From Opitutaceae bacterium (GTDB lineage: Bacteria; Verrucomicrobiota; Verrucomicrobiia; Opitutales; Opitutaceae), in the NCBI GenBank assembly GCA_025360455.1, contig JANYCF010000149.1, positions 1 through 32,229 on the forward strand: a DNA stretch of 32,229 nucleotides, read 5' to 3'. Position 1 is the first letter of the stretch; every line of letters begins with the position of its first letter. Below the pieces are notes generated by a model, which did no database searches, was not told the DNA's origin, and was given only the letters and a program-made list of their open reading frames with translations. Below, piece after piece: positions 6,789 through 30,150 of this stretch. A program made the position numbers and the translations under genes.

Positions 6789-6868
6789 AATCATTTAAAC
6801 CGCTCTAGCGTGAATCTATTTTTGCTTTCCCTGCATCCTCCGCCCTCCCTCGCCCGTAGCATCCAGCA

Positions 6869-9108: not shown

Positions 9109-9116
9109 GTCTTCCC

Positions 9117-9515
9117 ATGATCCTTTTCCTCCGTTTTCTTTTCGTCGTCGTGATCGGCTCGATGCTCTGGGTCACGAGCTGGGCCAGCCTGCACCAATCA
9201 CTCGGCGCTTTCGCCCGCAGCGCGACGTTCCGCGACCCGTGGGTGATCGCCACGCTCTTCGACGCCTATTGGGCGTTCATTGCGTTCTACGTCTGGGTGG
9301 CGTGGAAAGAGCAATCGCTGATTGCCCGCCTACTCTGGTTCGTCTCGATCATTCTGCTGGGGAATATGGCCATGGCTGCCTATATGCTCGTCCAACTCTT
9401 CTCCGTATCCGCTTCCGGTCCGCTCGACGAGGTGTTCACCCGTCGCCAGCCGGGGAAAATGACTTTACCGACCCTACTCACGGCACTTTCGATCGGCATC
9501 TACCTGTTCGCGTGA
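9117..9515 (+). CDS. small membrane protein, DUF1475-like
   Basis: A 132-aa protein with four predicted membrane segments: about residues 3-20, 42-62, 70-92 and 115-131. 'MILFLRFLFVVVIGSMLWVT', 'FRDPWVIATLFDAYWAF' and 'YVWVAWKEQS' resemble the DUF1475 pattern (W-V-x-x-T-L-x-D and a W-V-A-x-K-E strand end), but this is from memory and only moderately sure. No catalytic residues can be named. The ATG at 9117 is used because the frame upstream is repeat DNA. Its stop overlaps the GTG of the next gene (GTGA), so the two are translationally coupled. As a member of the operon it is probably a subunit or accessory protein of a membrane-bound lipid-modifying step; this is inference. Confidence 0.75.
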   Translation: MILFLRFLFVVVIGSMLWVTSWASLHQSLGAFARSATFRDPWVIATLFDAYWAFIAFYVWVAWKEQSLIARLLWFVSIILLGNMAMAAYMLVQLFSVSASGPLDEVFTRRQPGKMTLPTLLTALSIGIYLFA

Positions 9516-10006
9516 ATACAAGCGCACCGCACCGTTCGTTTTGGCAACGGCGCGTACGCGATCCACTCATCGCTTTGTTTGTTCAAGGCCTGATGCCCGA
9601 CAAAGTCGCTCTTACTCTCGGCGTGGGTGCCGCCTGCTCGCTGTTTCCTTTCCTTGGTTTCACCTCATTGCTCAATCTCGGAGTCGGACTTTGGCTGCGA
9701 CTCAATCAACCGCTCTTACAAACCTTCAACCAAATCCTTGGCCCGCTACAACTCGTACTGATCGTCGTGTACGTCCGCCTTGGCGAATGGCTGTGGCAAG
9801 CCCAGGACGGTCGCTTCAGCATTGTCGAAATGCTCCGCGTGTTTCGCGAAGCCAGCTTCGGTGTTTTTCTGCGGGCTTTCGGCTGGGCGGGTATCCATGC
9901 CTTCACCGCCTGGGTTCTCACCGCTCCCGCGCTGATCGCCACGGTGTATTTCTCTACGCGGCCTGCCCTCCGCCGCTTGGCGTCCAAAAGCACTGCTGGC
10001 GCGTAA
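9512..10006 (+). CDS. DUF2062 family membrane protein
   Basis: A 164-aa protein that starts with GTG inside the stop of the preceding gene (GTGA overlap). The DUF2062 pattern is visible: 'DKVALTLGVGAACSLFPFLG' followed by a membrane segment, then 'GLWLRLNQPLLQTFNQILGP', where family members have L-R-x-N-x-x-x-x-x-x-x-x-x-N-P. Two or three hydrophobic segments lie at about 35-55, 78-98 and 125-150. DUF2062 occurs alone and fused to glycosyltransferases and has no assigned activity. It is followed after 8 bp by the DUF1295 gene. A role in the lipid pathway is inferred from position only. Confidence 0.78.
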   Translation: MNTSAPHRSFWQRRVRDPLIALFVQGLMPDKVALTLGVGAACSLFPFLGFTSLLNLGVGLWLRLNQPLLQTFNQILGPLQLVLIVVYVRLGEWLWQAQDGRFSIVEMLRVFREASFGVFLRAFGWAGIHAFTAWVLTAPALIATVYFSTRPALRRLASKSTAGA

Positions 10007-10014
10007 CAAAGATC

Positions 10015-10809
10015 ATGCCGACCACTCTGCTCATTGTCACCGCGCTCGCCGGCCTCTGCGCTTTGTTCGCGCTGCTGTATCTGCTGGCCCGGCGGATCGA
10101 CAACTACGGAATCGTGGACATCGCGTGGTCCTACGCCTTCGCATTACTCGCCGGCTACTACGCGCTCCTCGCCCCGGGCTGGCTGCCACGTCGCCTCTTG
10201 TTCGCCAGTTTGGTTGTCCTCTGGAGTCTGCGTCTGGGCACTCATCTCTATCGCCGCGTGATCGGACACCATCCGGTGGAAGACGGACGCTATGTTCAAC
10301 TGCGGCAGGACTGGGCGGGAAACTTTGCCCCGAAGATGGCCGGCTTTTTTCAGATGCAGGCCGCCTCCGTGGTTCTGCTCGGCATTCCGTTTCTGCTGCC
10401 CGCCCTCAACCCCACGCCGCAATTCCATCCGCTCGAAATCACCGGCGCGATTCTCTGGCTCGTCGCCCTCGCCGGCGAATCCCTCGCCGATGCCCAACTC
10501 GCCGCCTTCAAGAGCAAACCCGCCAACCGCGGGCGGGTCTGCGCTGCCGGCCTCTGGCGCACCAGCCGCCACCCGAACTATTTTTTCGAATGGCTCATCT
10601 GGGTCGCTTATTTTGTCTTTGCCCTGGCCTCACCGTGGGGCTGGCTCGCCGCGCTCAGCCCGGCAATAATTCTATATCTGTTGCTGCGCGTGACCGGCAT
10701 CCCGCTCACCGAACAACAATCTCTCCGTTCGAAAGGCGACGCCTATCGCGAGTACCAAGCGGCCACGAGTGCTTTCGTCCCGTGGTGGCCGAAGCGGTTT
10801 AACCACTAA
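10015..10809 (+). CDS. DUF1295 / steroid 5-alpha-reductase-like membrane protein
   Basis: A 264-aa integral-membrane protein of the DUF1295 family, related to steroid 5-alpha reductases and isoprenylcysteine methyltransferases. It has several membrane segments (about 3-24, 36-52, 61-76, 118-131, 143-158, 192-225). The family's NADPH/SAM-site block is clear at 179-190 ('GLWRTSRHPNYF', R-x-S-R-H-P-N-Y), and the C-terminus has 'LTEQQSLRSKGDAYREYQ', the usual cytosolic tail with R-G-x-x-Y-x-x-Y. The likely chemistry is reduction of an enone or double bond in a lipid, known for relatives but not shown here. In this operon it would fit reduction of an unsaturated intermediate made by the methyltransferase/FAD enzymes. 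Confidence 0.88.
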   Translation: MPTTLLIVTALAGLCALFALLYLLARRIDNYGIVDIAWSYAFALLAGYYALLAPGWLPRRLLFASLVVLWSLRLGTHLYRRVIGHHPVEDGRYVQLRQDWAGNFAPKMAGFFQMQAASVVLLGIPFLLPALNPTPQFHPLEITGAILWLVALAGESLADAQLAAFKSKPANRGRVCAAGLWRTSRHPNYFFEWLIWVAYFVFALASPWGWLAALSPAIILYLLLRVTGIPLTEQQSLRSKGDAYREYQAATSAFVPWWPKRFNH

Positions 10810-10878
10810 TCCACCTTCATTCCCCCCAATCAAAACGCCGACATTAGTGCTCCTTCGTGTGCATGAGCGGTTTCAAAA

Positions 10879-11898
10879 ATGATCGACAGTCTTCTCAAAA
10901 AAAACTTGCTCCCCGACTGGCTTATTCGGATCGGAATTCGCCGGCTGTTGCGGCAACGCCTCCGTGAAATCGCCGCCCCGTTCCCGGAGCTGCAAGTCAC
11001 GCAATTCGCCGCCGCGTTGCGCACGATGCCCATCGCGATCAACACAGCCGAGTCGAAGGTCCAGCACTACGAAGTCCCGACCGAGTTCTACCAATACTGC
11101 CTCGGCCCACGGCTAAAGTATTCCTCCTGCTATTACGAACAAGGCATCGAACCCATCGTAACCGCCGAAGAACGCATGCTCGCCCTCACCTGTGAACGGG
11201 CTCAACTGCGCGACAGACTTGATATACTCGAGTTGGGTTGTGGTTGGGGTTCCCTCACGCTCTGGATGGCAGAACACTATCCCCGCGCCCGCATCACCGG
11301 CGTCTCGCACTCCCGCACCCAACGCGAACACATTTTGGGTGAAGCAAAAAAACGCGGCTTGTCGAATGTCACGATCATCACCTGCGACATGAACGAATTC
11401 GATATCACCGCCGACAGCTTCGACCGCGTCGTGTCGGTGGAGATGTTCGAGCACATGAAAAACTGGTCCAAGCTCATGGCCAACATCGCCCGCTGGCTGC
11501 GGCCCGGCGGGATGTTCTTCGCCCACGTTTTTAGCCACTCGCAGTTCGCGTATCACTTCACCGTGCGCGACGAGAGCGATTGGATGAGCAAATATTTTTT
11601 CACCGGCGGCATCATGCCCTCGCACAGTTTATTTTCTCATTTCCAAGACGATCTAAAGCTGGTGCAGGACTGGAAAGTGAACGGCCGCCACTACGCCCAG
11701 ACCGCCGAGCACTGGCTCATTAATATGGACGCACATCGCGCGGAGATCATGCCGCTGTTTGAGAAAACCTATAGGGCTGATCAAGCGTTGCAGTGGTGGT
11801 GCTACTGGCGCGTCTTCTATCTCGCCTGCGCCGAACTTTGGTGGTTCCGCTCCGGCGAGGAGTGGCACGTCAGCCATTACCTTTTCCACAAGCCATGA
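10879..11898 (+). CDS. second CFA-type SAM-dependent methyltransferase (coclaurine N-methyltransferase-like branch)
   Basis: A 339-aa methyltransferase that lacks the large N-terminal lipid-binding domain of the CFA gene at 7717-9018. After about 60 residues come 'VQHYEVPTEFYQYCLG' (62-76) and 'LKYSSCYYEQG', then the SAM motif 'ILELGCGWGSLTLWMAEHYP' (116-135). 'VVSVEMFEHMKNW' and 'WLRPGGMFFAHVFSH' are the usual later motifs. These features, and the 'LTCERAQL' helix before motif I, are those of the plant coclaurine N-methyltransferase-like branch of the CFA superfamily; bacterial members are usually annotated as CFA synthases. The substrate is unknown. It begins 69 bp after the DUF1295 gene and is the last plus-strand gene of the locus. 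Having two different CFA-type enzymes in one operon suggests two successive or alternative methylations. Confidence 0.88.
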   Translation: MIDSLLKKNLLPDWLIRIGIRRLLRQRLREIAAPFPELQVTQFAAALRTMPIAINTAESKVQHYEVPTEFYQYCLGPRLKYSSCYYEQGIEPIVTAEERMLALTCERAQLRDRLDILELGCGWGSLTLWMAEHYPRARITGVSHSRTQREHILGEAKKRGLSNVTIITCDMNEFDITADSFDRVVSVEMFEHMKNWSKLMANIARWLRPGGMFFAHVFSHSQFAYHFTVRDESDWMSKYFFTGGIMPSHSLFSHFQDDLKLVQDWKVNGRHYAQTAEHWLINMDAHRAEIMPLFEKTYRADQALQWWCYWRVFYLACAELWWFRSGEEWHVSHYLFHKP

Positions 11899-16998: not shown

Positions 16999-17826
16999 CT
17001 AAAACTTCCCCAGCAGCACAATCGGACCCTCGGCTTTCGGCACGCCGCCTTTCTTCTCGAGGCTGATGGCGAAGGCGGCGACGGAGCTGATGGGCTGGTT
17101 GCCCTTGAAGGCGAGGACCGCTTTGCCATCCGCGCCGGGCTTGAACACGCCGCCGTCCACCGGATTCGGATAGGCGGGATCGACGACCCAGATTTGGTAG
17201 TCCTGATTGTCGGCGATGACGGGGAGCTTCTCGACGGTGAGCAGGCCGGTTGAGAGGCCGGGATCCCACACCGCAATCGCCCGGGCCTCGGGCGTGTTGC
17301 CGGCGAGCGCCGCCAACGCGGTGATCTTGAGGTGCGTGAGATCCTGCTGCGCGCTGAGCTGTTTGCCGAGGTCGTTGATCATCGTCTCGGCGATGAGAGT
17401 GCGTTCCTGCAGCTGCCCTTGGGCGCTTTGGTAGGCGAGTTCGGCGAGTTCGTGTTGGGTACGCAGGTCTGAATTCTCCGAGCGCAGTTTCAGATTTTGC
17501 GAACCGAGCCAAAGCACGGCCAGAGCGAAACCAGCCGCAGCAGCCAGTGGCAGCCAGCGGGTGAACGGAAAAGAAATAACTTTTTCGTCAGCGGGGTGCG
17601 ACGACGCTGCGGGTGCGGCCGCGAGAATACGGGCTTTGAGCGCAGCGGGGGGATCGAACTGCTGCGGGGCCAGCGCGAGGCCGGTGGAGGCTTCGACCAA
17701 GGAGGTGACATACGCCTGCAATTCCGCATTGCCGGCGATTTCTTTCTCGAGATCGGCACGCTCGGCCCCTTCCAGCAGGCCGAAGGCATGCAGGGTGGCG
17801 AGTTCTTCGTGGTGTTCGGTGATCAT
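16999..17826 (-). CDS. anti-sigma factor, RskA type
   Basis: A 275-aa single-pass membrane protein. The N-terminal cytoplasmic part (residues 1-75) is an anti-sigma domain with 'ELATLHAFGLLEGAERADLE', the usual RskA 'YALG-L-x-x-x-E' pattern. A membrane segment at about 91-108 is followed by a coiled-coil-like stretch (residues 112-165, rich in L, E, Q) and an RskA C-terminal domain: 'LPVIADNQDYQIWVVDPAYP' with the family's Y-Q-x-W-x-x-D pattern, then 'VAAFAISLEKKGGVPKAEGP'. It would hold the sigma factor at the membrane until a signal, often by regulated proteolysis, releases it. Its ATG overlaps the sigma gene's stop (17823-17826), which keeps the two in balance. No HxxxCxxC zinc motif is present. 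Confidence 0.88.
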   Translation of the reverse strand: MITEHHEELATLHAFGLLEGAERADLEKEIAGNAELQAYVTSLVEASTGLALAPQQFDPPAALKARILAAAPAASSHPADEKVISFPFTRWLPLAAAAGFALAVLWLGSQNLKLRSENSDLRTQHELAELAYQSAQGQLQERTLIAETMINDLGKQLSAQQDLTHLKITALAALAGNTPEARAIAVWDPGLSTGLLTVEKLPVIADNQDYQIWVVDPAYPNPVDGGVFKPGADGKAVLAFKGNQPISSVAAFAISLEKKGGVPKAEGPIVLLGKF

Positions 17827-18419
17827 GGCTGGAGGGAAAGGGTGTCGCGGAGCTTGAGCAGGCCGCGGCGGATACGGGCCTTGATCGTACCGAGCGGCTC
17901 GTGCAGCCGGGCGGCAATCTCCTGCTGGGTCAGGCCACTAAAGAACGCGAGTTCGATGGCCGAGCGTTGTTCGTGGGGGAGAGCCGTGAGAGCGGCGCGA
18001 ACGGCGCCGGCTTGTTCCTGCATCCCGAGGGCATCGGCGGCCGTGTTGGCCCTGATGTCGGCATCGTTGCCGGGAATATCAGCGGCCGATTCATGCACGA
18101 TTTCGTTGCGGCGTTTCCGCATCCGGATCCGATCAATGGCGCGATTGCGAGTGAGCGTAGCGGCCCAACTGAAAACCGAACCGCGGGCCGGCGAGTAGTC
18201 GGCCGCTTTTTGCCAAAGTTGGAGAAACACTTCCTGCACGATGTCTTGCGCGTCGGCAGTATCGTTCGTCACTTTCAGTGCGAGGGAATATAGTGGACGG
18301 GAGAGTGCATCGTAGAGCCGGCCCAGAGCGGCTTTGTCCTTACGGGCCATGGCCGACATCAGTCCGGCTAGTTCACGGGCGGCGTCAGCGGCACCGGGAT
18401 TGTCGGCGGGGAGGCTCAT
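17823..18419 (-). CDS. ECF sigma factor (SigK-like)
   Basis: A 198-aa extracytoplasmic-function sigma factor. Region 2 is 'LGRLYDALSRPLYSLALKVT' with 'ADAQDIVQEVFLQLWQKA', the core-binding and -10-recognition part. Region 4 is 'LPHEQRSAIELAFFSGLTQQ' with 'EIAARLHEPLGTIKARIRRG', the -35-binding helix-turn-helix. The start is placed at the ATG at 18419 because region 2 then begins after about 30 residues, as usual; the frame continues to 18584 without similarity. The partner anti-sigma gene follows with a 4-bp overlap. Pairing with an RskA-type anti-sigma and the region 4 sequence suggest the SigK/ECF19-type group. The target promoter was not identified. Confidence 0.92.
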   Translation of the reverse strand: MSLPADNPGAADAARELAGLMSAMARKDKAALGRLYDALSRPLYSLALKVTNDTADAQDIVQEVFLQLWQKAADYSPARGSVFSWAATLTRNRAIDRIRMRKRRNEIVHESAADIPGNDADIRANTAADALGMQEQAGAVRAALTALPHEQRSAIELAFFSGLTQQEIAARLHEPLGTIKARIRRGLLKLRDTLSLQP

Positions 18420-18675
18420 GCGGACAGAACGCCGGGGCGATTCCACCCAGAGGGTGAAATCGAGCGGAGCGGAAAGAGCGGTGACGAGAAACATCTCATA
18501 ACTATACGGCTGAGCACGGTAGCGAGATGCCGAGACTTTAAGTTTAACCGGACTTGGCAACGCTGGAATCAGCAGATGAACCACATAGGGCGCATCGCAG
18601 TTTTTGAACAGATCCTCAATTCCGGGTTGGATAGGTGGGCGTGCGCGCTACGCCACTTGCTCGCGCTCTTTGGAC

Positions 18676-19019: not shown

Positions 19020-19796
19020 ATGTTCCCAACCCAAACAGTTATGTCGTCTATCCCGTCAACCGACCGACCCGAGGACCGCGAGCCCCGCGCGTTTGCGACT
19101 TCCAACTGGAGCATGATTGCCCAAGCAGGCGCATCGGACTCGGCCGGCACCCGGACGGCCCTGGCGCAACTCTGCCGCGTTTATTGGTATCCGCTCTACT
19201 GGTTCTCCCGCAGCCGGGGACTTTCCCAACACGACGCGGAGGACCTCATTCAGGCTTTCTTCGAAGATCTGTTGGAGCGTAATGCCATTGCCAAAGCCGA
19301 CGCCACGCGTGGACGCTTTCGTACGTTCCTCCTCACGTCGCTGCGCAATTTTCATTCCCACCAACGGGAGCGGGCGGGCACGATCAAGCGCGGTGGCGGG
19401 ATCGAGCTGATTTCGCTCGATGCGGTGAGTGTCGCCGAAAATCGCTTTCAACATGAGCCGGCCACGGAGAGTTCGCCGGAAAAACTCTTCGACCAAAAAT
19501 GGGCGCGGAGCGTGCTCGATGCCACCCTCGCCCGTCTCCGCCGCGAGTATACGGCCGCCACCAAGCAGCTTTGGTTCGACGAATTGAAAGTCGTCCTCTG
19601 GGGCGGACGCGGTGAAGTGAGCTATGCGGAGATTGCCGTCCGCCTCGGCTCAACCGAAGGCGCGGTCAAGGTGGCGGTCCACCGGTTGCGCACGCGCTTT
19701 AAGGAAAGCCTGCGCGACGAGATCGCGCAGACGGTACTCAATCCCGCCGAAGTTGACGACGAGATGCGCCATCTGCTCGCCGCCGTGAGCCTGTAA
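19020..19796 (+). CDS. ECF-like RNA polymerase sigma factor next to a Ser/Thr kinase
   Basis: A 258-aa sigma factor of the kind common in Planctomycetota and Verrucomicrobiota beside Ser/Thr kinases. Region 2 is 'LAQLCRVYWYPLYWFSRSRG' and 'LSQHDAEDLIQAFFEDLLER', followed by 'GRFRTFLLTSLRNFHSHQRE'. Region 4 is 'EVSYAEIAVRLGSTEGAVKV' and 'AVHRLRTRFKESLRDEI', a clear helix-turn-helix. No separate anti-sigma gene is adjacent; the kinase at 19845 may take that role. The ATG at 19020 has AGGA nine bases upstream; an ATG at 19041 is the alternative. The last codons overlap a promoter-like -35 element for the kinase. It is the best candidate to read the TGTAACC-N14-(C/G)GTTAG promoters at 19792, 26288 and 28640, although this is inferred from position. 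Confidence 0.85.
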   Translation: MFPTQTVMSSIPSTDRPEDREPRAFATSNWSMIAQAGASDSAGTRTALAQLCRVYWYPLYWFSRSRGLSQHDAEDLIQAFFEDLLERNAIAKADATRGRFRTFLLTSLRNFHSHQRERAGTIKRGGGIELISLDAVSVAENRFQHEPATESSPEKLFDQKWARSVLDATLARLRREYTAATKQLWFDELKVVLWGGRGEVSYAEIAVRLGSTEGAVKVAVHRLRTRFKESLRDEIAQTVLNPAEVDDEMRHLLAAVSL

Positions 19797-19818
19797 CCTT
19801 TTCCGGTTAGTGCGTTAG
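19792..19818 (+). promoter_or_regulatory. ECF-type promoter before the kinase gene
   Basis: TGTAACC (19792-19798) and CGTTAG (19813-19818) with a 14-bp spacer. The -35 element includes the stop codon of the sigma-factor gene. Expected transcription start is near 19826, giving a leader of about 20 nt. The same motif at the same spacing lies before the TonB receptor and TIR-TPR genes. Confidence 0.6.
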
Positions 19819-19844
19819 AACCCCACATACACTCTGACCATCGT

Positions 19845-22742
19845 ATGAATCCTGCCGTCATCTGCCAGCGCTGCGGTGTCACCCTGTCGGCGCTCTCCAA
19901 CGACGGCCTGTGCGCCGGGTGCATGTTGCGCTCGGTGTTTGAGGAATCAGATGCCGAAGGCATATCGGCTCCGCCGCGCCTGACGTTGCCACGCACCTTC
20001 GGTACCTACGAGTTGCTGGAGGAGCTCGGCCGCGGCGGCATGGGCGTGGTCTATCGCGCCCGCCAGCAGGCGCTGAATCGCATCGTCGCGTTGAAACTCC
20101 TGCTGGGCGGCGTGTATTCGAGCGAGGCGATGTTGCGGCGTTTCCAAATTGAGGCCGCCGCTGCCGCTGCGCTCCGGCATCCGGGCATCGTGGCGATCCA
20201 CGATTACGGCGAATTCGAAGGCCAACCTTACTACACGATGGAATTGATGGAGGGTCGAAATCTCGCGCAGGTGGCCGAGGGTCGCCCCCTGGAAGTGCGC
20301 CGCGCCACTCGCTACCTGCGGCAGATCGCCGACGCCGTACGCTATGCCCACGGGCGAAATATTCTCCATCGCGATCTCAAGCCGTCCAATATCCTGATCG
20401 ATCACGATGACCGCGCCCGCGTGGCGGATTTCGGCATGGCGAAACGACTCGATCTCGACAGCGGCGTCACGCTCACCGGCCAGCTCGTGGGTTCGCCCAA
20501 CTACGCGGCACCGGAACAAGTTTCCGGCCGCGATAAAGACGTCGGCGTGACGACCGACCTCTATGCGCTCGGCGCTTTGCTTTATCATTTGCTCACGGGG
20601 CGTCCGCCGTTTCTCGCCGCGACGCTGGAGGAAACATTACGATTGCTGCACGGCACCGAACCGGTCGCGCTGCGCGAACTCAATCCCGGTGTGCCGCGCG
20701 ATCTGGAGACGATCTGCCTGAAGTGCCTCGCGAAGGAGCCCGCCCGTCGCTACGCAACTGCCGCAATGCTCGTCGAGGATTTGGACCGTTTCCTCAGCGA
20801 CCGTCCGATTCAAGCCCGGCCGCCGAGCATAGCCTATCGCGCCCGTAAATATGCGCGGCGCAATCGCACGCTGGTCATCGCGACCGGGGCCGTGTTTATT
20901 TCACTTGTGGCCGGGCTCGGCGTGGCGCTGACCGGCTATCGCCGTGCCGTAGTGCAGCAGCGCGCGACGCAGGCGGCGCGTGCGCAGGCGGAAAATCTAG
21001 TTGGTTTCATCATGCGCGATTTGCAGCCGAGCCTGCTCGCGCACGGTCGGTTGCCGGTAGTGAAAAAAACCATGCAGGAGACCATCCGCTATTTTGAGGC
21101 CCTGCCACCGGAGTTGCGCAATCTCGCCGCCCTGCGCGGTCATGCACAAGCGCTCGAAACGCTGGTGGCCTTTTCCAGCCGGGTGGAAGTCAATCCCCTC
21201 GGCCAGCCTGATCCGCCCGTGGCGCATGATGCCGCCGAACGGGCCCTGCAATTGCGCCGGGCGATCTTAGCCGTCGATTTGAACGACGCCGATTCGGCGG
21301 CGGCGGCGATCGAGGACGAGGCGCTCGCCGCCAATAATAGCGGCCATTCCGACGCGTTCGACTGGAAGAAACTCAATGGCGATGGCACCCGGCGCTATCG
21401 TGAGCTTGAACAGCAATTTCCCGGCAATCTCCGGGTGAAGATCGGCTTGGCCAAGCTACTTTCCGAGCGCGGGTGGTGGGAGCAGAATCTCGAAATGATC
21501 AACGAGTCCGTGCAGCGCTGGGAGCAGCTCATCGCGGCCCAGCCGGACGACATGGAACTGCGGATCAATCACGTCTTGAGCCTGGGCGGCATCGCGGAGA
21601 ATTATAAGCAAAGGCATGACGGCGCAAAATCGCTGGTCGCAGGCGAGAAAACCGTCGCCGCCGCGGCGGCACTGCTCCAGGCCGATCCCACCAATCTCCG
21701 GGTCATCAGTATCGCTGCCGCGATGACCCGGGAACATATTTGGTGGAGCGAACCCACCGCCCCAATACGAGCGATCGAGGCCGCCAAGACCGCTCAAGGC
21801 TACTATCGGAAACTTAGGGAATTGGATCCCACCAATGCCGGCTGGCGCGAATATGAAATGGAGCTGGTGGGATTCGAGGCCGGTTTGTTGCTCATGGAGG
21901 ATCGGCCGGAGCCTGCTCGAAAAATAGTGGACGATCTGCTCGCACACGCCGAACCCATTGCGGCCTCGCCGGGCCAACGCGTACTCATAAACTTGCTCGT
22001 CACCTCGGGTGAACTGGCCGCGGCGACCGGCGATCAATCCGTGGCCCGGTCCCGACTTCGAACCGTCCGAGACGGAGTAAATGATTATCCGCTCACATTT
22101 CCCGAACATACGGTGGATCGCGCCGTGGCCCGCTTCACCTGGTGGCGCGCGCAGGCGAAGCTCGTGGCTGCTTTGCAGGACTGGCCGGAACTCGAACGTC
22201 TTGGCCATACGATGAGCGAAGAGATGGAACGCAACCTGCGTGAAATCCCCGAAGGCAAAAACCAATTCCTGCCCCGCCAAGCCGATACAAAGGGATTTCT
22301 CGGCAAGGCCCTGCTCCGACAGGGTAACGCCCAGAAAGCCGTCGCGCTATTGCAGGAGGCGACAGCCGGCTTGCGCGACGAAAGTGACTGGACCTTCATC
22401 AACGAACGCCGGGAAGATCTGGCCGTCTTGAACCATGAGGACCTACCGGAAGCCCTGCGGCTCACGGGCAATAGCGGCCAAGCGCGCAGCCTGCTGGAGA
22501 CAGCGCTGAAAGAGGCTGAGACAAATTTTGCGCAGGGCCCCCAACGCTGGATCGCCCGGCGCGCGGTCGTGGAGGCGACGTTGCGACTGGTGGAGGTGTT
22601 GAATCCAAAGAATGCCACGGAGGCCGAGCAGAGAAAGAAACTGCTGGGGCGCGCAGCAGAATTATTCAGCGGTCCGGAGGTCGAGGCGAAGATGAATGCC
22701 CGTGATCGCGAGATGAAGGCGAAGATTGAAGCGCTGCGGTGA
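19845..22742 (+). CDS. membrane Ser/Thr protein kinase with zinc ribbon and TPR-like sensor part
   Basis: A 965-aa eukaryotic-type protein kinase. A zinc ribbon opens the protein (C7-x2-C10 and C23-x2-C26). The kinase domain (about 55-320) has the glycine-rich loop 'LGRGGMGVVY' (61-70), Lys84 in 'VALK', 'HRDLKPSN' (175-182), DFG at 195-197 and 'GSPNYAAPEQ' (216-225), so all catalytic residues are present. One membrane segment lies at 342-363. The remaining 600 residues are helical with repeated A-x-x-L-x-x-D-P-x-N/T patterns, such as 'LRELDPTNAGWREYE', and look like a TPR-type region; on this topology they would lie outside the membrane. It is encoded 48 bp after the sigma gene and has its own ECF-type promoter. 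By analogy it may phosphorylate or sense for the sigma factor. No ribosome-binding site is seen before the ATG. Confidence 0.93.
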   Translation: MNPAVICQRCGVTLSALSNDGLCAGCMLRSVFEESDAEGISAPPRLTLPRTFGTYELLEELGRGGMGVVYRARQQALNRIVALKLLLGGVYSSEAMLRRFQIEAAAAAALRHPGIVAIHDYGEFEGQPYYTMELMEGRNLAQVAEGRPLEVRRATRYLRQIADAVRYAHGRNILHRDLKPSNILIDHDDRARVADFGMAKRLDLDSGVTLTGQLVGSPNYAAPEQVSGRDKDVGVTTDLYALGALLYHLLTGRPPFLAATLEETLRLLHGTEPVALRELNPGVPRDLETICLKCLAKEPARRYATAAMLVEDLDRFLSDRPIQARPPSIAYRARKYARRNRTLVIATGAVFISLVAGLGVALTGYRRAVVQQRATQAARAQAENLVGFIMRDLQPSLLAHGRLPVVKKTMQETIRYFEALPPELRNLAALRGHAQALETLVAFSSRVEVNPLGQPDPPVAHDAAERALQLRRAILAVDLNDADSAAAAIEDEALAANNSGHSDAFDWKKLNGDGTRRYRELEQQFPGNLRVKIGLAKLLSERGWWEQNLEMINESVQRWEQLIAAQPDDMELRINHVLSLGGIAENYKQRHDGAKSLVAGEKTVAAAAALLQADPTNLRVISIAAAMTREHIWWSEPTAPIRAIEAAKTAQGYYRKLRELDPTNAGWREYEMELVGFEAGLLLMEDRPEPARKIVDDLLAHAEPIAASPGQRVLINLLVTSGELAAATGDQSVARSRLRTVRDGVNDYPLTFPEHTVDRAVARFTWWRAQAKLVAALQDWPELERLGHTMSEEMERNLREIPEGKNQFLPRQADTKGFLGKALLRQGNAQKAVALLQEATAGLRDESDWTFINERREDLAVLNHEDLPEALRLTGNSGQARSLLETALKEAETNFAQGPQRWIARRAVVEATLRLVEVLNPKNATEAEQRKKLLGRAAELFSGPEVEAKMNARDREMKAKIEALR

Positions 22743-22783
22743 GGTGTAAGACGGCAAACGCTATGGTCCCGGATTTCAGGTGG

Positions 22784-22841
22784 GGGCCGGACCGCTGGGC
22801 CGGTCGCGAATATCCAAACGGCGCGCCCAGCGGTCACGCCC
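22784..22841. repeat. palindrome between convergent kinase and TonB genes
   Basis: Arms 22784-22800 and 22825-22841 match at 15 of 17 positions, with a perfect core GACCGCTGGGC/GCCCAGCGGTC and a 24-nt loop. It lies in the 135-bp gap between two convergent genes. There is no T-run on either side, but a stem this strong could act as a two-way transcription barrier. Confidence 0.75.
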
Positions 22842-22877
22842 TACCCCAGAAGTTAAAACGACCCACCCCGATTCATC

Positions 22878-25800
22878 TCAGAACGAAATTGAATTCGTCA
22901 GCGTCCAGATTCGCGGCGGCGGGATGCGGCCCGCCGCCAAGCTACCGTCGGGTTGCACCGTCACGGGGATCAGATCTTTATTCGCGAAAACGTTGTTCAC
23001 GTTGAGCTGGATGCGCCATGTGTATTTCTTGGCGAATTTCCGCTCGTAGCCGAGCCAAAGATCGACGTTGGATTCGGCCGGGCCGAGGTACGGATGGGCG
23101 AAATCATAGACCGGCGCAGTCGGCGTGCTGCCGGCACCGGGCAACACCGGATAACCGACCGCGTCTTGGTCCTGCCAACGATACGCGCCACCGATTTTCC
23201 AGCCCTTGAGCCGGCCTTGGGCGAAGGTGTAGTCGGTGATCAGGTTGAAATGCCACGGCCGCGATTCGGAGACACTGGAATTTTCTTTGGCGCGATAAAT
23301 GGAGTAGGGAATCCAGATATTGTCGCGGTAGTCGTCGCGCACCGTCTGGGGATTTGCCCACGGACCCCACAGCCGCACATCACCGATCACGGCAGGGCGG
23401 TTGGTGCCGGCCACCGGCGTGTTGAAAACCGCCCAGCGTTGCTCAATCCAGGCGGAGACCGATTGGGCGAGATGATAACTTCGGGTGTGAGTTTGAGAGG
23501 CGTTGAAGACGATATTCCAGTTGGGCTTCAGTTGCGCCGAAAACTCATACTCCACGCCCTTCGACCACGTGTCGCCGGTGATCGTCACCCCCAGAAAGGC
23601 CGGATTCACACTGGGAATGCCCGTCGCGTACTTCGTCCGATCGATGCCATAGAGTGCGAAAAAAGCATCGGGCGGCAGATTGGCGAGAAACGCATTGGAA
23701 ATCGCAATCCCATCAGCCTGCGCCTGCGCCCCGGTTTGCGTGGCATCGGCCGACTGATAGCCGCCAACAAAATTATTCAATCCTTCAAGATTTTGCCGGG
23801 CGAACGAATAGCCCCAGATCTCTGAAGCGGTCAGATGCCAGAATCCGCCCAAATCGGGGAGCGCGTCGTTCGCCACCAAGGTGTCGTACCAGTTCACCTT
23901 CAAGCTCAGCCGACCGTCGAACGTGGAAATCCGGAAGCCATAATCCTTCGTTTGACCAACCGGCGGCGCGAGCGGCACGCCGAGCGGATCGATCCGGCCC
24001 GCCTTGGGCTGAAAGTTTTCCGAGTGATTGTAGAAAAGGCTGACTTCCGTGCGGCCGGGAAGTTTGTCGCGAAGAATTTTCGGCACATGCGCGACGACGC
24101 TCCAGCTCACCGAATCGCCGGACACGGTACCGTTGGGACTCGCAGGCAATCGGTAGGCAGGACTGGCAAAATCGGTGCTGTTGTCCGGTTTGAGCGGGGG
24201 CCGGGTCAGAGCGTAACCGCGATCGCGATCATGGCGCAGCCCGACCATCGGCACCACGAGCTCGTCGAAGAGAAAACCCTGCCAGACGAAAGCCTGTGAC
24301 TCCACCTCGTCGCGACGGAGGAACGCACCTAGCGTTTGCGCACGGGCACCGTCCGTATTTTTCGCAACACCAAAGGGCAAATCCTTCCAAGCGTAGGTGC
24401 CGTAATCGAAGTAACGCAAACTCCCGGAACTCACCGGTTGGATGGCCGACAGGCTCGGTAAATTCGCGCCGGCTGCCGAGGTACGATCAGCCAGCGAAGA
24501 CCCGAGGTAATTGAGCGTATTGATTTGGCGGCTGAAAATATCTTTGGTGAAAAAGTAAGGCACGAAAGCATCGTCGGCGATCTGCCCCAGCCAGCTGTAT
24601 TGCTCGACGTCCGCTCTTTCACGGCTCCATAGTCCCGTGAAAACATGGCGACCGAGCACGCGCGTCAGAGGAGAATCGCCCAGCACCTCTTTGAAACGCA
24701 GTTCACCAAAACCGGTGAAACGCTTCGCGTCGCGCGCGGAAGCAAACCAATTCCCCGTGGTACCCGCCGTCTGCAGGAAGACCCGGCCGAAGTTGGGATT
24801 GGGACTGCCATCGAGCCGCTGCGAATTGATGTCCATCGTCAGCGCCGCCCCGTCCGACCCGTTGGTTGCGGCGCGGTGCATCTGCTGCCGGTCGAAAGCC
24901 AATTCAAAGCCGAGCCGGTCATTCAGGAAAGTCTGCGCCAGCGTGACGTTGACGATCTCGTGACCGGACCACTCGCGCTTGTTGGGACCTTCGGGAAGTT
25001 TGCGCACATAATCAAAGATGGTCCGGTCCTGCAGCTGGTTGGTGCCGTAAAGCTTGAACTGCTCGGCGGGGGAAGTGGATTTCGGCAGGTAATCCACCGG
25101 GTTTTTCACCTGAGCCAATCCGTTGAAATTCTGATCCGAACTTGTGATCAGAGCGCTTTGTCCGGAAGTAGGATTGTCGAACACCGCATAGAAGTTGCCG
25201 AATGCGGGCGAGGTCAACCCGGTGACCAGCGAATTCACGGACGGGTCATATTGCCAGGTCGCAGGATTCACCCCGCGCTTGTTCAGCTGGGTGAACCACG
25301 GCGTGATCAGGTCGGTGGGCGGCAAGACGTGCGGACGGTTGGCGTCGATTTTGCCGTGCTCGTAATTCAGACGCAGCGAAGTGCGGGCCGAGCGGTAGCG
25401 GAAGAATTTCGGGTCCCAGCGCAGCGCGCCATAGACGCGCCGGTCGCGGTTGAAAGCGGGCTTCTGCTCATAGTTCGTCCAGTCGTCGAGCTGATCGAAG
25501 CGCAGCGCCAGTTCGTCGGGCAACAGGACACGGTTGAGATCGAGGGTGGCCCGGTGGCTGCCGAAGCTGCCCGTGCTGAACGTGACGGAACCTTCGTTTT
25601 TGAACGCGGCGCTGTTGGTGCTCGCGTTAATGATGCCGGCCGGACTGCCGAGGCCGAAGAGAATGGCATTGGGCCCGCGCTGAATGTCAATGCGGCCGAC
25701 GTTGAACCCATCCCACGCGATGTCGGTGAGAAAGAAATCGCGCGTGTTGTCGGCGGCGGTGAGGCCACGCACCCGCGTGTTGTTTTGCGGAGCAAGCCGG

Positions 25801-26237
25801 GCGGCGGCGTCGCGTTGCACGGCACCCAAAATGCTAAGGCCGGAAAAATTTCCCCGCGAACCACCCACCTCTGTATTGGGCGTATAAACGAGCAAGTCCT
25901 GCGAATTGTGCGAATTCGTGTCCTTGAGAAACTGCGATGTCACCACCGAGATGGCGGAGCCGACGTCTTTCAACTCGGTGCGAATGCGCGTGGCCGCCAT
26001 CGTGGCCGTGGCCTCGTAGCTATCGCGATCTTCGGAAGCGGAAACGACAAAGGGATCAAGGACGGTGATCTCATCGCGGTCCGAGTCATAGCCCGACACC
26101 CGTGAATCTGCCGACCGATCCGTTTTCTGGGCAAGAACAGCCAGAGGCAGATCGAAAAACAAAACGGCCAAAGCGAACGCATAAATAGCGGCGCGGCGAG
26201 AGCGCGCTAAAATCAGGGGCGTGGATGGAGTAGTCAT
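22878..26237 (-). CDS. TonB-dependent outer-membrane receptor
   Basis: A 1119-aa outer-membrane receptor that imports a ligand with energy from TonB-ExbBD. The signal peptide is residues 1-35 ('RRAAIYAFALAVLFFDLPLA', then cleavage near 'VLA|Q'). The mature N-terminus has 'ITVLDPFVVSASED', typical of Opitutaceae receptors. The plug runs to about residue 230 ('TELKDVGSAISVVTSQFLKD', 'NTRVRGLTAADNTRDFFLTD', 'IDIQRGPNAILFGLGSPAGI', the last being the most conserved plug motif). A beta-barrel follows, ending in the usual aromatic residue ('TLTNSISF'). The ATG at 26237 is used because the upstream in-frame codon is TTG (26258). The gene lies downstream of the TIR-TPR gene but has its own ECF-type promoter at 26288-26314. 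The ligand cannot be told; no sugar-specific genes are nearby. Confidence 0.94.
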   Translation of the reverse strand: MTTPSTPLILARSRRAAIYAFALAVLFFDLPLAVLAQKTDRSADSRVSGYDSDRDEITVLDPFVVSASEDRDSYEATATMAATRIRTELKDVGSAISVVTSQFLKDTNSHNSQDLLVYTPNTEVGGSRGNFSGLSILGAVQRDAAARLAPQNNTRVRGLTAADNTRDFFLTDIAWDGFNVGRIDIQRGPNAILFGLGSPAGIINASTNSAAFKNEGSVTFSTGSFGSHRATLDLNRVLLPDELALRFDQLDDWTNYEQKPAFNRDRRVYGALRWDPKFFRYRSARTSLRLNYEHGKIDANRPHVLPPTDLITPWFTQLNKRGVNPATWQYDPSVNSLVTGLTSPAFGNFYAVFDNPTSGQSALITSSDQNFNGLAQVKNPVDYLPKSTSPAEQFKLYGTNQLQDRTIFDYVRKLPEGPNKREWSGHEIVNVTLAQTFLNDRLGFELAFDRQQMHRAATNGSDGAALTMDINSQRLDGSPNPNFGRVFLQTAGTTGNWFASARDAKRFTGFGELRFKEVLGDSPLTRVLGRHVFTGLWSRERADVEQYSWLGQIADDAFVPYFFTKDIFSRQINTLNYLGSSLADRTSAAGANLPSLSAIQPVSSGSLRYFDYGTYAWKDLPFGVAKNTDGARAQTLGAFLRRDEVESQAFVWQGFLFDELVVPMVGLRHDRDRGYALTRPPLKPDNSTDFASPAYRLPASPNGTVSGDSVSWSVVAHVPKILRDKLPGRTEVSLFYNHSENFQPKAGRIDPLGVPLAPPVGQTKDYGFRISTFDGRLSLKVNWYDTLVANDALPDLGGFWHLTASEIWGYSFARQNLEGLNNFVGGYQSADATQTGAQAQADGIAISNAFLANLPPDAFFALYGIDRTKYATGIPSVNPAFLGVTITGDTWSKGVEYEFSAQLKPNWNIVFNASQTHTRSYHLAQSVSAWIEQRWAVFNTPVAGTNRPAVIGDVRLWGPWANPQTVRDDYRDNIWIPYSIYRAKENSSVSESRPWHFNLITDYTFAQGRLKGWKIGGAYRWQDQDAVGYPVLPGAGSTPTAPVYDFAHPYLGPAESNVDLWLGYERKFAKKYTWRIQLNVNNVFANKDLIPVTVQPDGSLAAGRIPPPRIWTLTNSISF

Positions 26238-26287
26238 GTCGGGTCGAAATGAGGACAACGGCCCAAGGAGACGGTTGTCCTACCCTA

Positions 26288-26314
26288 CTAACCGGTTTTT
26301 CGAGGAAGGTTACA
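26288..26314 (-). promoter_or_regulatory. ECF-type promoter before the TonB receptor
   Basis: On the minus strand: TGTAACC (26308-26314), a 14-bp spacer, then GGTTAG (26288-26293). Expected start near 26280, giving a leader of about 43 nt. Same motif and spacing as before the kinase and TIR-TPR genes. Confidence 0.6.
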
Positions 26315-26384
26315 GGGCAAGACGAACTATCTCCACCCTCAAATACAGGGTTTCTTCTGCGATCAGTTGGATGTCCGCCCTTCC

Positions 26385-28595
26385 TCAAAAGAGCGGCGCG
26401 TTATTTTTCGGGTCGTTGAGGATCAGTTCGAAACGCGGATCATTCTGCAGCGGCCACAGGCCGATCTGGTGGCGCAGGACGTGGACGTTGGCTTCGTGGA
26501 TATCACCTGACTTGGAAAGCGTTCGCGCCAGCTCAGCCAACGCGGTGTCCTGGTCGCCGCTCCACGCGTACAACATCGTGAAATTCAACCAAGGCGCGAG
26601 CTGCCGCGCTTTGTTCTCGGCCGCTTTTGCCTCCGGCTGATTGCCCAGCATCGCCTGAATCAATGCGAGATCCGCCCATTTTCGATAGCTGTCGGATTCG
26701 GTGACGAGCGCCGACGCGAGTTGATCGCGATTTTGTTCGAGCAAGGGCCGCGCCCGTTCCGGTTGACCCAACACGATCAGCGCCTGCGCGACGACAATGC
26801 GGTCGAGACGCGCCGTGGCCGGAGCGAAGCGCCAGTGGTCGCGACTTTCCTCCCACAGGCGAACCAGTCCGGCGGCATCGCCCGACGTATAAGCCCAGTG
26901 GGCCAGCGCCATGATCGCATCCGGATCGGAACGGCGCGCCTCGGCGGGAATTTGCGCGAGGAACGATTCCATCGGACCGGCCGCACCGCGCGCAAGAAAC
27001 GGAATGAAGGCGACATGCGCAGCACGCAGGGTGTTGACCGGAAGCAACGCGTTGGCCTCGGCCGCGAGCGCAAGGGCTTCGTCGAAGTGCCGCCCACCGA
27101 GATACAGGTCACTCATACTGGAGAGCAGCAGTTCGTTGCGCGGATCGAGCCGCCGCGCCTGCTGATAATAGCGCAACGCCTCGCGGGGATCTTTTGTTTT
27201 CCACGCCCGCATCAGCAACGTCTGCGGATTATTCGGGTAAAGCCTCACCAGCCGTTTCACTTGGACGGCATAATCGGCCTGATCGCCCGTCGCCTGCCGA
27301 TAGTGCGCCAACGCGATGATTACCTCCGCCTCGTCGGGGGCGAGTTGCACGGCGGTATCGATCGCGCGCTTCGCTTGCGCGAGACGGCCTGCGGTGTGAT
27401 CGAGGTAGTCGTGGGTGTTAAGGTGCAGGCGAGCAAGCTCCGCCCACGCGAGCGCGAAGTGCGGATCGAGTTGCACCGCGCGTTCGAAAAACGGCAAGGC
27501 CTGCCCGAGCATTTCCATCGTATGGCCCCCGCTGCGCATCACATCACGACCGCGCAGAAAACTGTCGTAGGCGGCGACATTTTCCGTCGGCCGGGCGTCG
27601 AGTCGCGCCAGATCCTGCGGTGACAGTGCGGCGTGCAATGCGGCCGCGATTTCCTTCGCCAACGCGGCCTGGATGGCAAACACGTCATCCAGCTCGCGAT
27701 CATAGGCCTTGGCCCAAAGATGTTGATCCGTCCGCGTGTCAATCAACTGGCCGGTCACGCGGACTTTGTTGCCGATGCGCCGCACGCTACCCTCGAGAAT
27801 AAACGCCACCCTGAGCTCGCGCCCGATCTGTTGCATCGTTTTTTTCGTGTCGCGATAACCCATCACCGATGTGCGCGAGATGACTTCCAGATCCCCAATC
27901 AAAGCGAGGCTGGTCAGAATATCCTCCTGCACCCCATCGGCGAAGTAAGCGTTGTCTTTGCTCTCACTCATGTTGGTGAACGGCAGCACGGCGATGGATT
28001 TGCTGCCGGTCACCGGCGGAGGCGCTGTCGTGGGCGTCCGCAGCGCGAACCACCCGCTACCGGCCGCGAGCGCGAGAATGAGCGCCGTAATCAACGTTCC
28101 TCTCCGGAATTTTTTTAGCGGCGACTGAGAAAATGGGATACCCGTGCGCCCTGACACCGATTCGCCCGTCAACAGCCGTTGCACCTGTCGCACAAATTTT
28201 CCGTCGGTTTGACCCGCCGGCAGACGCGTCCACTGCCGCTCCCGAAAACGATCGGGCACGCGCGCGGCGACGTCAGGCGTGTCGTCGATCACCACCGGGA
28301 ATAGAAACGGGTGGTCGTCGGCCATCAGGTGGGAGCGGTCCACCGCGAGTTTCCATTCGAGCCGAAAATAACCTTCGGGTCGCACCTGGGTGTTGGCCGA
28401 AATCACCGGAATAATCAGTGCGCACTCCTGGATTTGCCGGCGGATTTTTGTATCCCAGGCATCGCCGCCGCGCAATTCATCACGATCGAACCACACTTCG
28501 ATGCCCACAGCGCGCAACGCCTCCGCGAGACATTGCACTGCCACGGTATCTTGGGAAGCGTAGCTCAGAAAAACAGCAGGAGTGGGATCGGGCAT
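26385..28595 (-). CDS. TIR-domain, single-TM, TPR-repeat protein
   Basis: A 736-aa protein in three parts. Residues 5-140 are a TIR domain: 'AVFLSYASQDTVAVQCLAEA', 'VWFDRDELRGGDAWDTKIRR' and 'CALIIPVISAN'. Glu80 in 'YFRLEWKLAVD' lies where NADase-active TIRs carry the catalytic Glu. A membrane segment lies at about 166-186, placing TIR in the cytoplasm. From 200 comes an 'SIAVLPFTNMSESKDNAYFA' segment with 'LEVISRTSVMGYRDT', a domain otherwise found in adenylate-cyclase/CadC-like proteins. The rest (about 330-736) has TPR repeats, such as 'LDPHFALAWAELARLH' and 'LYPNNPQTLLMRAWKTKDP'. It is not a typical defence TIR gene: there is no SIR2, STING or Thoeris partner. It shares a promoter type with the kinase and TonB genes, so a signalling role is more likely. 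Confidence 0.9.
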   Translation of the reverse strand: MPDPTPAVFLSYASQDTVAVQCLAEALRAVGIEVWFDRDELRGGDAWDTKIRRQIQECALIIPVISANTQVRPEGYFRLEWKLAVDRSHLMADDHPFLFPVVIDDTPDVAARVPDRFRERQWTRLPAGQTDGKFVRQVQRLLTGESVSGRTGIPFSQSPLKKFRRGTLITALILALAAGSGWFALRTPTTAPPPVTGSKSIAVLPFTNMSESKDNAYFADGVQEDILTSLALIGDLEVISRTSVMGYRDTKKTMQQIGRELRVAFILEGSVRRIGNKVRVTGQLIDTRTDQHLWAKAYDRELDDVFAIQAALAKEIAAALHAALSPQDLARLDARPTENVAAYDSFLRGRDVMRSGGHTMEMLGQALPFFERAVQLDPHFALAWAELARLHLNTHDYLDHTAGRLAQAKRAIDTAVQLAPDEAEVIIALAHYRQATGDQADYAVQVKRLVRLYPNNPQTLLMRAWKTKDPREALRYYQQARRLDPRNELLLSSMSDLYLGGRHFDEALALAAEANALLPVNTLRAAHVAFIPFLARGAAGPMESFLAQIPAEARRSDPDAIMALAHWAYTSGDAAGLVRLWEESRDHWRFAPATARLDRIVVAQALIVLGQPERARPLLEQNRDQLASALVTESDSYRKWADLALIQAMLGNQPEAKAAENKARQLAPWLNFTMLYAWSGDQDTALAELARTLSKSGDIHEANVHVLRHQIGLWPLQNDPRFELILNDPKNNAPLF

Positions 28596-28639
28596 AGCAC
28601 GGCAGACGACAAGTCAGCTGCCGGCTACCCAACGCGGCT

Positions 28640-28666
28640 CTAACGAAAAATCTACCGGAGGTTACA
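28640..28666 (-). promoter_or_regulatory. ECF-type promoter before the TIR-TPR gene
   Basis: On the minus strand: TGTAACC (28660-28666), a 14-bp spacer, then CGTTAG (28640-28645). Expected start near 28632, giving a leader of about 37 nt. It is divergent from the weaker site at 28719. Confidence 0.6.
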
Positions 28667-28718
28667 GGCGGAGTGAGAAAAATATGACGACGCCACCTCA
28701 GCCAATTTATTCCGGGTG

Positions 28719-28745
28719 CGTAACCTTGCCGGATGAATCCTGTAG
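28719..28745 (+). promoter_or_regulatory. weaker ECF-type promoter before the haloperoxidase-like gene
   Basis: CGTAACC (28719-28725), a 14-bp spacer, then CTGTAG (28740-28745). GTAACCTT and TAGAAC line up with the kinase promoter at the same distances, but the -10 differs at two positions and the -35 at one. The leader would be about 75 nt. Confidence 0.4.
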
Positions 28746-28827: not shown

Positions 28828-30150
28828 ATGAAAGCTACTCGTACTGTATTGTCTCCGCTCCGGTTGATCATCACCGGAGCGTGCTTGTTGGGCGCCGTCC
28901 TCAGCTCCGCCTTCGCCGACGCCGTCACCGATTGGAACACGGCCTTCGAAAATTCCCTGATCCTCCCACCCGCCTCGCCAAACGAGCGCGGGCCGGCTGT
29001 GCCGAGCCGCCCGTGGGCCATCATGCACGCCGCCATGTTCGACGCAGTGAATGGCATTGCCCGCAAATATGAAAAACTACACGTCACCGATACCGCGCCC
29101 TGGGGCGCCAACGCCGAAGCCGCCGCGATCCAGGCGGCTTACACTGTGCTGTCCGCCCTGCGCCCGAATTCGCAGGCGGCGTGGGACGCCCAGTTGACCA
29201 CTTCACTCGCCACGTTGCCGAGTAATCCCAGTTTCGCGCAATCCATCACGCGCGGACGGGACTGGGGCACGACGGTTGCCAATGCCATCATCGCTTGGCG
29301 CGCCGCTGACAACAGCACGCCGAGCCCGCCGCAAGCACCGTTTGTCGGCATTACCAACGTGGGTTTCTGGCGCCACTCGTCCAACGCCGTTTCCCCCACC
29401 GCCGGCTATGCCAACCTCGTCACCGTACCATTCTTGCTCGCCGATCCGATGGCCTTCGACCCCGGCCCGCCCTATGGCTTCGCCAATCGCGCCGATGCCC
29501 TCGCCAGCGCCGCTTACGCGGCCGACGTGAATGAATCCATCTTGAGCGGTGGGGCCACGAGCAGCGTGCGCACCGCGGCGGAAACCGACGAAGCGCTCTT
29601 CAACAACGCCTGCGATCTCGCCAGTTTAAACCACCTGTTGCGCTCCCAGTTATCCCCCCAGGCCCGGTTGGTGGACAACGCGCGCGCCTTCGCCCTCCTC
29701 AATATGAGCTGGTTTGACACGAGCATTGTCCTCTTTCGCGTGAAATATCTGCATCAGTTCTGGCGGCCGTTTCAAGCCATCAACAATGCCGATTTGGACA
29801 ACAACGCCGCAACGACCAAGCCGATGGTCGCGTGGACCTCGTTCCGGCCCACGCCGCCGCATCCCGAATATATTTCAGCGCACGTCACGCTCTTCACCAC
29901 GTTACTCCGCGTGACCGCGCGTCTGGCCGGTGACTACCATAGCGTAAACATCTACGCGGCGGCCAATCCGGTGCCACACACCTACGACAGCCTCGCCGCG
30001 ATTTCCGACACCACCGTCGATGCCCGCGTGCACATGGGTTTCCACTTCCGTGAGACATGCGAAATCAGCCAGGTCCTCGGGCGCGAGCTCGGCGATCACT
30101 TCGTGGAAAACTATCTGGAGCCCCGCGGCCACCGGCACTGCCACCGCTAA
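28828..30150 (+). CDS. secreted vanadium-dependent haloperoxidase / PAP2-type phosphatase
   Basis: A 440-aa exported protein of the vanadium haloperoxidase / acid phosphatase superfamily. A signal peptide covers residues 1-30 ('LIITGACLLGAVLSSAFA|D'). The vanadate/phosphate-binding residues are visible: K306-x6-R313-P314 ('KYLHQFWRP'), S350-A351-H352 ('PEYISAH') and R400-x3-G404-x-H406 ('RVHMGFHFRE'). The usual motif is S-G-H, so A351 is a common variant. An early 'RPWAIMHAAMFDAVN' helix is shared with bacterial haloperoxidase-like proteins. Peroxidase and phosphatase activity cannot be told apart by eye. The frame is open upstream to 28582, but the ATG at 28828 directly precedes the signal peptide. 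It is divergent from the TIR-TPR gene and followed by a terminator. Confidence 0.88.
   Translation: MKATRTVLSPLRLIITGACLLGAVLSSAFADAVTDWNTAFENSLILPPASPNERGPAVPSRPWAIMHAAMFDAVNGIARKYEKLHVTDTAPWGANAEAAAIQAAYTVLSALRPNSQAAWDAQLTTSLATLPSNPSFAQSITRGRDWGTTVANAIIAWRAADNSTPSPPQAPFVGITNVGFWRHSSNAVSPTAGYANLVTVPFLLADPMAFDPGPPYGFANRADALASAAYAADVNESILSGGATSSVRTAAETDEALFNNACDLASLNHLLRSQLSPQARLVDNARAFALLNMSWFDTSIVLFRVKYLHQFWRPFQAINNADLDNNAATTKPMVAWTSFRPTPPHPEYISAHVTLFTTLLRVTARLAGDYHSVNIYAAANPVPHTYDSLAAISDTTVDARVHMGFHFRETCEISQVLGRELGDHFVENYLEPRGHRHCHR

Follow-up and report, generated by a model that had tools for sequence, protein, structure and literature searches.

Evidence for a private ECF-type promoter set and a compact sigma–kinase regulon in an Opitutaceae bacterium

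In the genome of an Opitutaceae bacterium (Verrucomicrobiota), three and perhaps four similar promoter-like elements very probably serve as ECF-sigma promoters for the product of the sigma gene at 19041-19796, and would drive a compact regulon of about 11 kb. The window analysed here is a stretch of 32,229 nucleotides of contig JANYCF010000149.1 (assembly GCA_025360455.1). The elements, their conservation in a relative, their link to one family of sigma factors and the covariation between sigma residues and promoter bases are direct results of computation, and together they strongly support a real, private ECF-type promoter set with a compact sigma–kinase regulon. The features concerned are the following:

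16999-17826, minus strand: anti-sigma gene adjoining the SigK-like sigma gene
17823-18584, minus strand: SigK-like ECF sigma factor
19041-19796, plus strand: ECF-type sigma factor, 251 aa (Pfam Sigma70_r2/r4, NCBIfam sigma70-ECF)
19792-19818, plus strand: promoter copy 1, TGTAACC-N14-CGTTAG, for the kinase; exact match, kept in the related genome G174
19845-22742, plus strand: Ser/Thr kinase (Pfam Pkinase, 6e-48)
22878-26237, minus strand: TonB-dependent receptor (Pfam Plug, 4e-10)
26288-26314, minus strand: promoter copy 2, TGTAACC-N14-GGTTAG, for the TonB receptor; exact match, kept in G174
26385-28595, minus strand: TIR-TPR protein (Pfam TIR_2, 1.4e-19, and TPR)
28640-28666, minus strand: promoter copy 3, TGTAACC-N14-CGTTAG, for the TIR-TPR gene; exact match, kept in G174
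28719-28745, plus strand: promoter copy 4, CGTAACC-N14-CTGTAG, ahead of the haloperoxidase-like gene; less certain (PWM 21.5 bits)
28828-30150, plus strand: vanadium-haloperoxidase-like protein with a signal-peptide-like start (weak similarity to 4cit, E 6e-6)

The cassette sigma has the ECF architecture of sigma2 and sigma4 domains only. Its Sigma70_r2 match reaches 24.5 bits (cut-off 24), the r4_2 match falls just under its cut-off (24.0 against 25.7 bits), and NCBIfam sigma70-ECF is matched at 54.4 bits against a cut-off of 42.9. It carries a DAED motif at residues 65-68 and the putative promoter-reading residues H107, V209 and K210, and AlphaFold predicts helices at 93-112 and 206-229. The kinase begins with a zinc-ribbon-like CQRCG...CAGC segment, followed by the kinase domain (55-309), a hydrophobic segment (342-362) and a C-terminal part with weak TPR similarity (Pfam TPR_19, just under cut-off). 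In the TIR-TPR protein a TIR domain (8-128) and a hydrophobic segment (166-185) precede a CadC-like and TPR region, for which the NCBIfam CadC match (3.5e-7) lies under its cut-off. The haloperoxidase-like protein resembles a vanadium-dependent haloperoxidase (4cit), with Pfam VCPO_2nd at 0.003, also under cut-off. Comparison of the window TIR and kinase proteins with PADLOC (TIR, PD-T4-6 kinase) gave domain-level matches and no full-length defence match. The anti-sigma gene of the window adjoins the SigK-like sigma gene, not the cassette sigma gene. This second ECF pair (16999-18584, minus strand), a SigK-like sigma with an RskA-type anti-sigma, adjoins the cassette and is apparently not part of it. 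Elsewhere in the window, positions 4320-11898 hold a lipid-modification run: a fatty acid desaturase, an amine oxidase, DUF1365, a cyclopropane synthase, DUF1295 and a second cyclopropane synthase.

A pattern scan of the window reproduced all four sites reported by the first-pass annotation, three exact and one weaker, with the same positions, strands and N14 spacing. Copy 4 has three mismatches to the exact motif at unchanged spacing and is divergent from copy 3; all four sites are oriented toward a gene. Between the AAC of the −35 element and the CGT of the −10 element lie 15 nt, an ECF-like spacing ahead of gene starts, and the elements have the form of ECF promoters. The TGTAACC of copy 1 includes the stop codon of the sigma gene (CTG TAA CC). 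When the second base of the −10 box is set as −11, as in sigmaH, position arithmetic places the predicted 5′ ends at about 19825, 26281 and 28633 for copies 1 to 3, and approximately 20, 44, 38 and 76 nt upstream of the start codons for copies 1 to 4, distances that fit promoters. No copy lies upstream of the sigma gene itself among the listed top PWM sites of the window.

The number of motif occurrences alone does not set these sites apart. With up to three mismatches the window contains 12 matches against 6.1 expected, a count reached in 2 of 100 shuffles. The exact TGTAACC-N14-SGTTAG pattern occurs three times in the 4.85-Mb assembly (93% complete), always in the window, and its reversed-pattern control does not occur; with one mismatch there are 4 matches against 11 for the control, and with two mismatches 52 against 205. 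Relaxed matches are no commoner than those of the reversed pattern; what stands out is how the sites cluster before gene starts—three exact copies ahead of three genes within 9 kb, joined by the fourth—and not their number. Of 252 genomes of the family, eight contain exact matches; their total of 12 compares with 33 matches to the reversed pattern (totals added up by eye), and family genomes thus show no enrichment of the exact motif itself. More than one exact match is found in the own genome and G174 only, three in each. Among the six relatives with a single match, G139 has it between a sigma homologue and its kinase; the matches in G014, G071, G189, G197 and G211 score at most 12.5 bits with the PWM and were taken as chance. 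A looser pattern, BGTAACMWYN12SBKNAG, was tried as a guide to a genome-wide regulon and was rejected: it matches the own genome six times (control 7), and four of these matches are the window sites. By reading, one of the other two falls at the beginning of a transketolase-like gene, and the other has no clear gene. The regulon is judged from these counts to be local, and the own genome appears to hold no convincing further member; the other sigma-family members found there are only a fragment with a different recognition helix and a short end piece.

A motif model built independently of the window pattern recovers the same sites. For 106 homologous loci, the region between sigma and kinase genes was taken from 15 nt upstream to 160 nt downstream of the sigma stop codon, and de novo search yielded TGTAACCTTTC...C(T/G)(T/G)NAGTAA, with a log-likelihood of 446 against 100-104 in three mononucleotide shuffles (60 starts, against 150 for the real data). 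These loci derive from 30 sigma loci of the family, in which L015 and L016 were replaced by the window and G174, L019 and L026 were left out because they duplicate the loci L071 and L108, and L022 was left out as truncated by the contig end; 80 further loci brought the regions to 107, and the near-duplicate L044 was dropped. After retraining on 103 loci, excluding the window, G174 and L071, the posterior exceeds 0.5 in 55 of them. Applied to both strands of the window, the retrained PWM ranks the four sites first to fourth (22.6, 21.5, 21.5 and 19.8 bits), with the next site at 14.5; in 60 windows simulated by a first-order Markov model, the top site scores 13.2 bits on average and never more than 18.4. 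Copy 4 is weak by consensus, yet is the second-best site of the window by the family PWM, at 21.5 bits. The sigma TAA stop codon falls inside the −35 box at 10 of the 55 occupied training sites, and likewise in the window, G174 and G139.

The motif tracks the kinase-linked sigma family across many taxa. Over 94 loci (1.38 Mb, with G139 in twice) the PWM finds 84 sites of at least 17 bits, training positions included, whereas 20 column-permuted PWMs find 2.1 on average and never more than 5. Among the sites of the 80 named loci, 34 fall at training positions; 25 of the other 39 lie just before an ORF start, compared with 6.4% of random positions, which bears out the placement of sites before gene starts rather than anywhere. 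Seven of these 39 stand before the sigma gene and suggest that the sigma regulates its own expression in such loci, though not in the window. Among the other genes behind PWM sites are some for further zinc-ribbon kinases, for beta-propeller proteins of the Kelch and NHL types, and for secreted-looking proteins without a Pfam family.

Several loci outside the window display arrangements of their own. In L115 (JAJYHY010000158), four near-identical extra copies of 25-27 bits are present at 6179, 6502, 8929 and 9920, downstream of the sigma–kinase pair; three of them lie within 200 nt of similar ORFs starting MKDQTK, MKKQTK and MNNQSK, and the copies look like an amplified target array. L080 (PLAY01000020) has sites at 5652, 10850, 14813 and 18438, each before another gene; one product is a kinase by Pfam and the other three have a zinc-ribbon-like start. 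In L028, L032 and L036 a sister element, TGTGAT...CTGTA or TTGTAG, stands behind the sigma homologue and seems to belong to another specificity, and the sigma4 helix of the own-genome sigma fragment C139 (L194) looks similar to those of these three loci.

The cassette is conserved beyond the window. In G174, a member of another genus of the family, a 13-kb contig carries the four genes in the same order and orientation, with identities of 82% for the sigma, 49% for the kinase, 62% for the TonB receptor and 69% for the TIR-TPR protein, and the sigma orthologue starts at the equivalent place. The motif stands ahead of the kinase, TonB receptor and TIR-TPR genes, where the boxes are kept and the spacer bases have changed. 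Neither the haloperoxidase gene nor a site of the copy 4 type is present in the G174 cassette, and no anti-sigma gene was seen among the ORFs of its contig, all of which were read and part of which were scanned. Homology searches found TIR and TonB matches in 67 and 98 of the 252 genomes, respectively, from which 20 TIR and 30 TonB loci were fetched. The promoters of 18 TIR and 28 TonB homologues outside the cassette are without the motif, and only the window and G174 loci have it; as motif carriers, the TonB and TIR families were therefore rejected for the loci examined. In L201 and L204 a site of 16.6-16.7 bits lies away from the TonB start, and L163 has one of 13.7 bits. Since the examined homologues lack the motif, recruitment of the TIR and TonB genes seems particular to the window and G174 cassette.

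The promoter bases vary together with residues of the sigma factor. We analyzed covariation in the 47 of the 106 loci that have a site of at least 13 bits. For the base after AAC (−30), the top columns are residues 210 (z 12.6) and 209 (z 9.2), in the predicted helix 206-229, the recognition helix of sigma4; for −11 and −9 they are residues 107 (z 14.1) and 103 (z 10.0), both in the unbroken predicted helix 93-112, the −10-reading helix of sigma2. By contrast with these scores, the best sigma column for motif positions 0, 8, 23 and 26 reaches just z 4.1-5.0. The identity of residue 107 follows the base at −11: N occurs with T in 21 of 24 cases, K or H with G in 11 of 11, and D with C in 7 of 8. 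The remaining four loci have Q, S or Y there.

These residues lie at or beside places known to touch promoter DNA. According to structural reports, N92 of sigmaH bonds the −11 pair and N88 bonds −10 (PMC6411747), and sigmaE R171 and sigmaW K170 bond the −31 pair (PMC6713349). Profile alignment with Mtb SigE and the spacing W81-I85-N88-N92 equate residues 107 and 103 with sigmaH N92 and N88, and residue 210 aligns to sigmaE R171/sigmaW K170. On these alignments, 107 coincides exactly with a known contact, and 210 and 103 correspond to contacts of the neighbouring base. A gap follows residue 103 in the MAFFT alignment with the other sigma of the window and in the phmmer alignment to 5uxx; the equivalence of 107 and N92 depends on the profile alignment and the unbroken predicted helix. 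Tree-aware sign tests had 4, 6, 4 and 2 independent pairs available, all in the expected direction or neutral and none significant, and shared ancestry may be a cause of the covariation.

The base–residue rules were written down before new loci were examined. The 90 new loci consist of L229, 29 of the 30 loci of one set (the window being left out) and 60 fetched as the next listed matches outside the own family, except that of G721; four loci more than 90% identical to the 47 were removed, leaving 86. Among the 90, a few from Opitutaceae had already served in PWM training without yielding a site, and again have none. In these mostly more distant loci a downstream site of at least 13 bits is present in 11 of 86 and absent from 75, so the motif belongs to part of the sigma family, not all of it. 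The rule for −11 holds at 9 of 10 testable downstream sites and at 6 of the 8 testable sites among the 10 found before the sigma gene. V209-K210 occurs with C in 3 of 3 cases, R210 preceded by A or L at 209 with A in three cases out of four, and R103 with A in all three of its cases. Outside the rules set down, any K210 goes with C (6/6) and any R210 with A (4/5).

Sites within one locus also share a dialect. We compared 19 loci having a kinase site and another site, with one pair per locus and a 16-bit threshold, leaving out L071 and L108. Paired sites agree at −11 in 17 of 19 loci (7.2 by chance), at −10 in 18 (11.9), at −30 in 14 (7.8), at −29 in 16 (9.6) and at −9 in 14 (6.6), and motif position 26 shows no excess (11, against 10.7). 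The window conforms for copies 1-3, which have G at −11 as H107 predicts.

The interpretation of the elements as ECF promoters linked to the adjacent sigma, already made in the first-pass annotation, is upheld by the independent motif model, conservation in G174, placement at gene starts, covariation and dialect. The motif could instead be the operator of a dimeric repressor or activator, given that TAACC...GGTTA is a partial inverted repeat and a three-mismatch match on the opposite strand overlaps each of the three exact copies. This is very unlikely: the family motif is asymmetric, with CTTAAG, CGTAAG and CCGTAG on its right side, all four window sites point at a gene, and the bases covary with sigma residues. 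Similarly improbable is reading of the sites by another sigma, such as the SigK-like protein, which is also an ECF sigma adjoining the cassette and has its own anti-sigma factor. No SigK-like gene was seen among the ORFs of the 13-kb G174 cassette contig, the motif accompanies kinase-linked sigmas of this family in many taxa, and the dialect follows the local sigma.

A more serious possibility, to which we give somewhat less than even weight, is that only copies 1-3 are promoters of the cassette sigma and copy 4 is a chance or decayed site, or one read by another factor. Copy 4 is the least certain of the four: the −11 base of its CTGTAG is T, whereas H107 calls for G, which makes it doubtful, two of its −10 bases (−11/−10) depart from the dialect of this locus, and the gene behind it is missing from the G174 cassette. 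Against this, its PWM rank, distance and orientation fit a promoter, and by direct reading a spacer of 15 would bring GT into register. Of the proposed regulon, the kinase, TonB receptor and TIR-TPR gene stand, and the haloperoxidase is a plausible member despite its absence from G174 and its −10 element off the inferred code.

Pairing of an ECF sigma with a Ser/Thr kinase is already known. The ECF43 pairs EcfP/PknT of Vibrio parahaemolyticus and EcfK/PknS of Xanthomonas citri likewise place an ECF sigma beside a transmembrane Hanks-type kinase (PMC8103513, PMC13147305), and a Hanks-type kinase gene lies beside the cassette sigma gene as well. In ECF43, as described in PMC8103513, acidic residues of DAED are replaced and the charge is regained by phosphorylation (phospho-Thr). 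Unlike the ECF43 proteins so described, the window sigma keeps these acidic residues; D or E at 65 together with D at 68 is kept in 44 of the 47 site-bearing sigmas, the window (D65-A66-E67-D68) included, and D68 is invariant in 40 aligned sigma rows. Since the acidic residues are kept, any phosphorylation of the cassette sigma should act elsewhere than in DAED; a candidate is the conserved F-T-W stretch near the N-terminus (residues 18-23). The cassette further differs from the ECF43 systems, as those sources describe them, in the zinc-ribbon-like N-terminus of the kinase, a kinase gene with its own sigma-type promoter, and different targets. The promoters share the −35 AAC and −10 GTT with those reported for Mtb sigmaH (G-11 T-10 T-9, PMC6411747) and with the sigmaE/sigmaW −35 (PMC6713349), and the putative reading residues lie at or beside equivalent places. 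In contrast to classical ECF promoters as these sources present them, they have GTAACC(TT) at −35, AG after GTT, and locus-specific dialects at −11 and −30/−29. The TIR-TPR protein has the layout of CadC-like membrane proteins with a TPR region—cytoplasmic domain, membrane segment, CadC-like/TPR region—but its cytoplasmic domain is a TIR (with the NCBIfam match under cut-off). In the open-licence literature searched, judged by title and the start of the abstract, we found no description of this promoter, code or cassette.

If the cassette sigma reads these promoters, it would itself be made from another promoter and would drive its partner kinase from a promoter starting inside the sigma stop codon. 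It would also drive the TonB receptor, the TIR-TPR protein and perhaps the haloperoxidase. Most likely the membrane kinase responds to something beyond the cytoplasm and switches the sigma on, or holds it back, by phosphorylation, in which case its own promoter would create a feedback loop. We infer transcription from the sites, control of the sigma by the kinase, the existence of a signal and a physiological role, which could be in envelope or nutrient stress, or in defence. A broader reading, to which we assign an even chance, is that verrucomicrobial and planctomycete pairs of a sigma and a zinc-ribbon kinase are many, each insulated by a dialect predictable from sigma residues (107 for −11, 103 for −9, 209/210 for −30/−29), and that in the window one such circuit has taken over a TonB importer and a membrane TIR protein, so that a kinase acting as sensor is linked to a TIR effector.

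The finding would provide a directly testable promoter code for a large and little-studied group of sigma–kinase systems, whose targets may be readable from sequence. A dedicated kinase-linked sigma would govern both a TIR protein and a nutrient importer, and the finding prompts one to ask by what route a kinase acts on an ECF sigma in which DAED is kept, unlike the kinase-activated ECFs described in the cited accounts.
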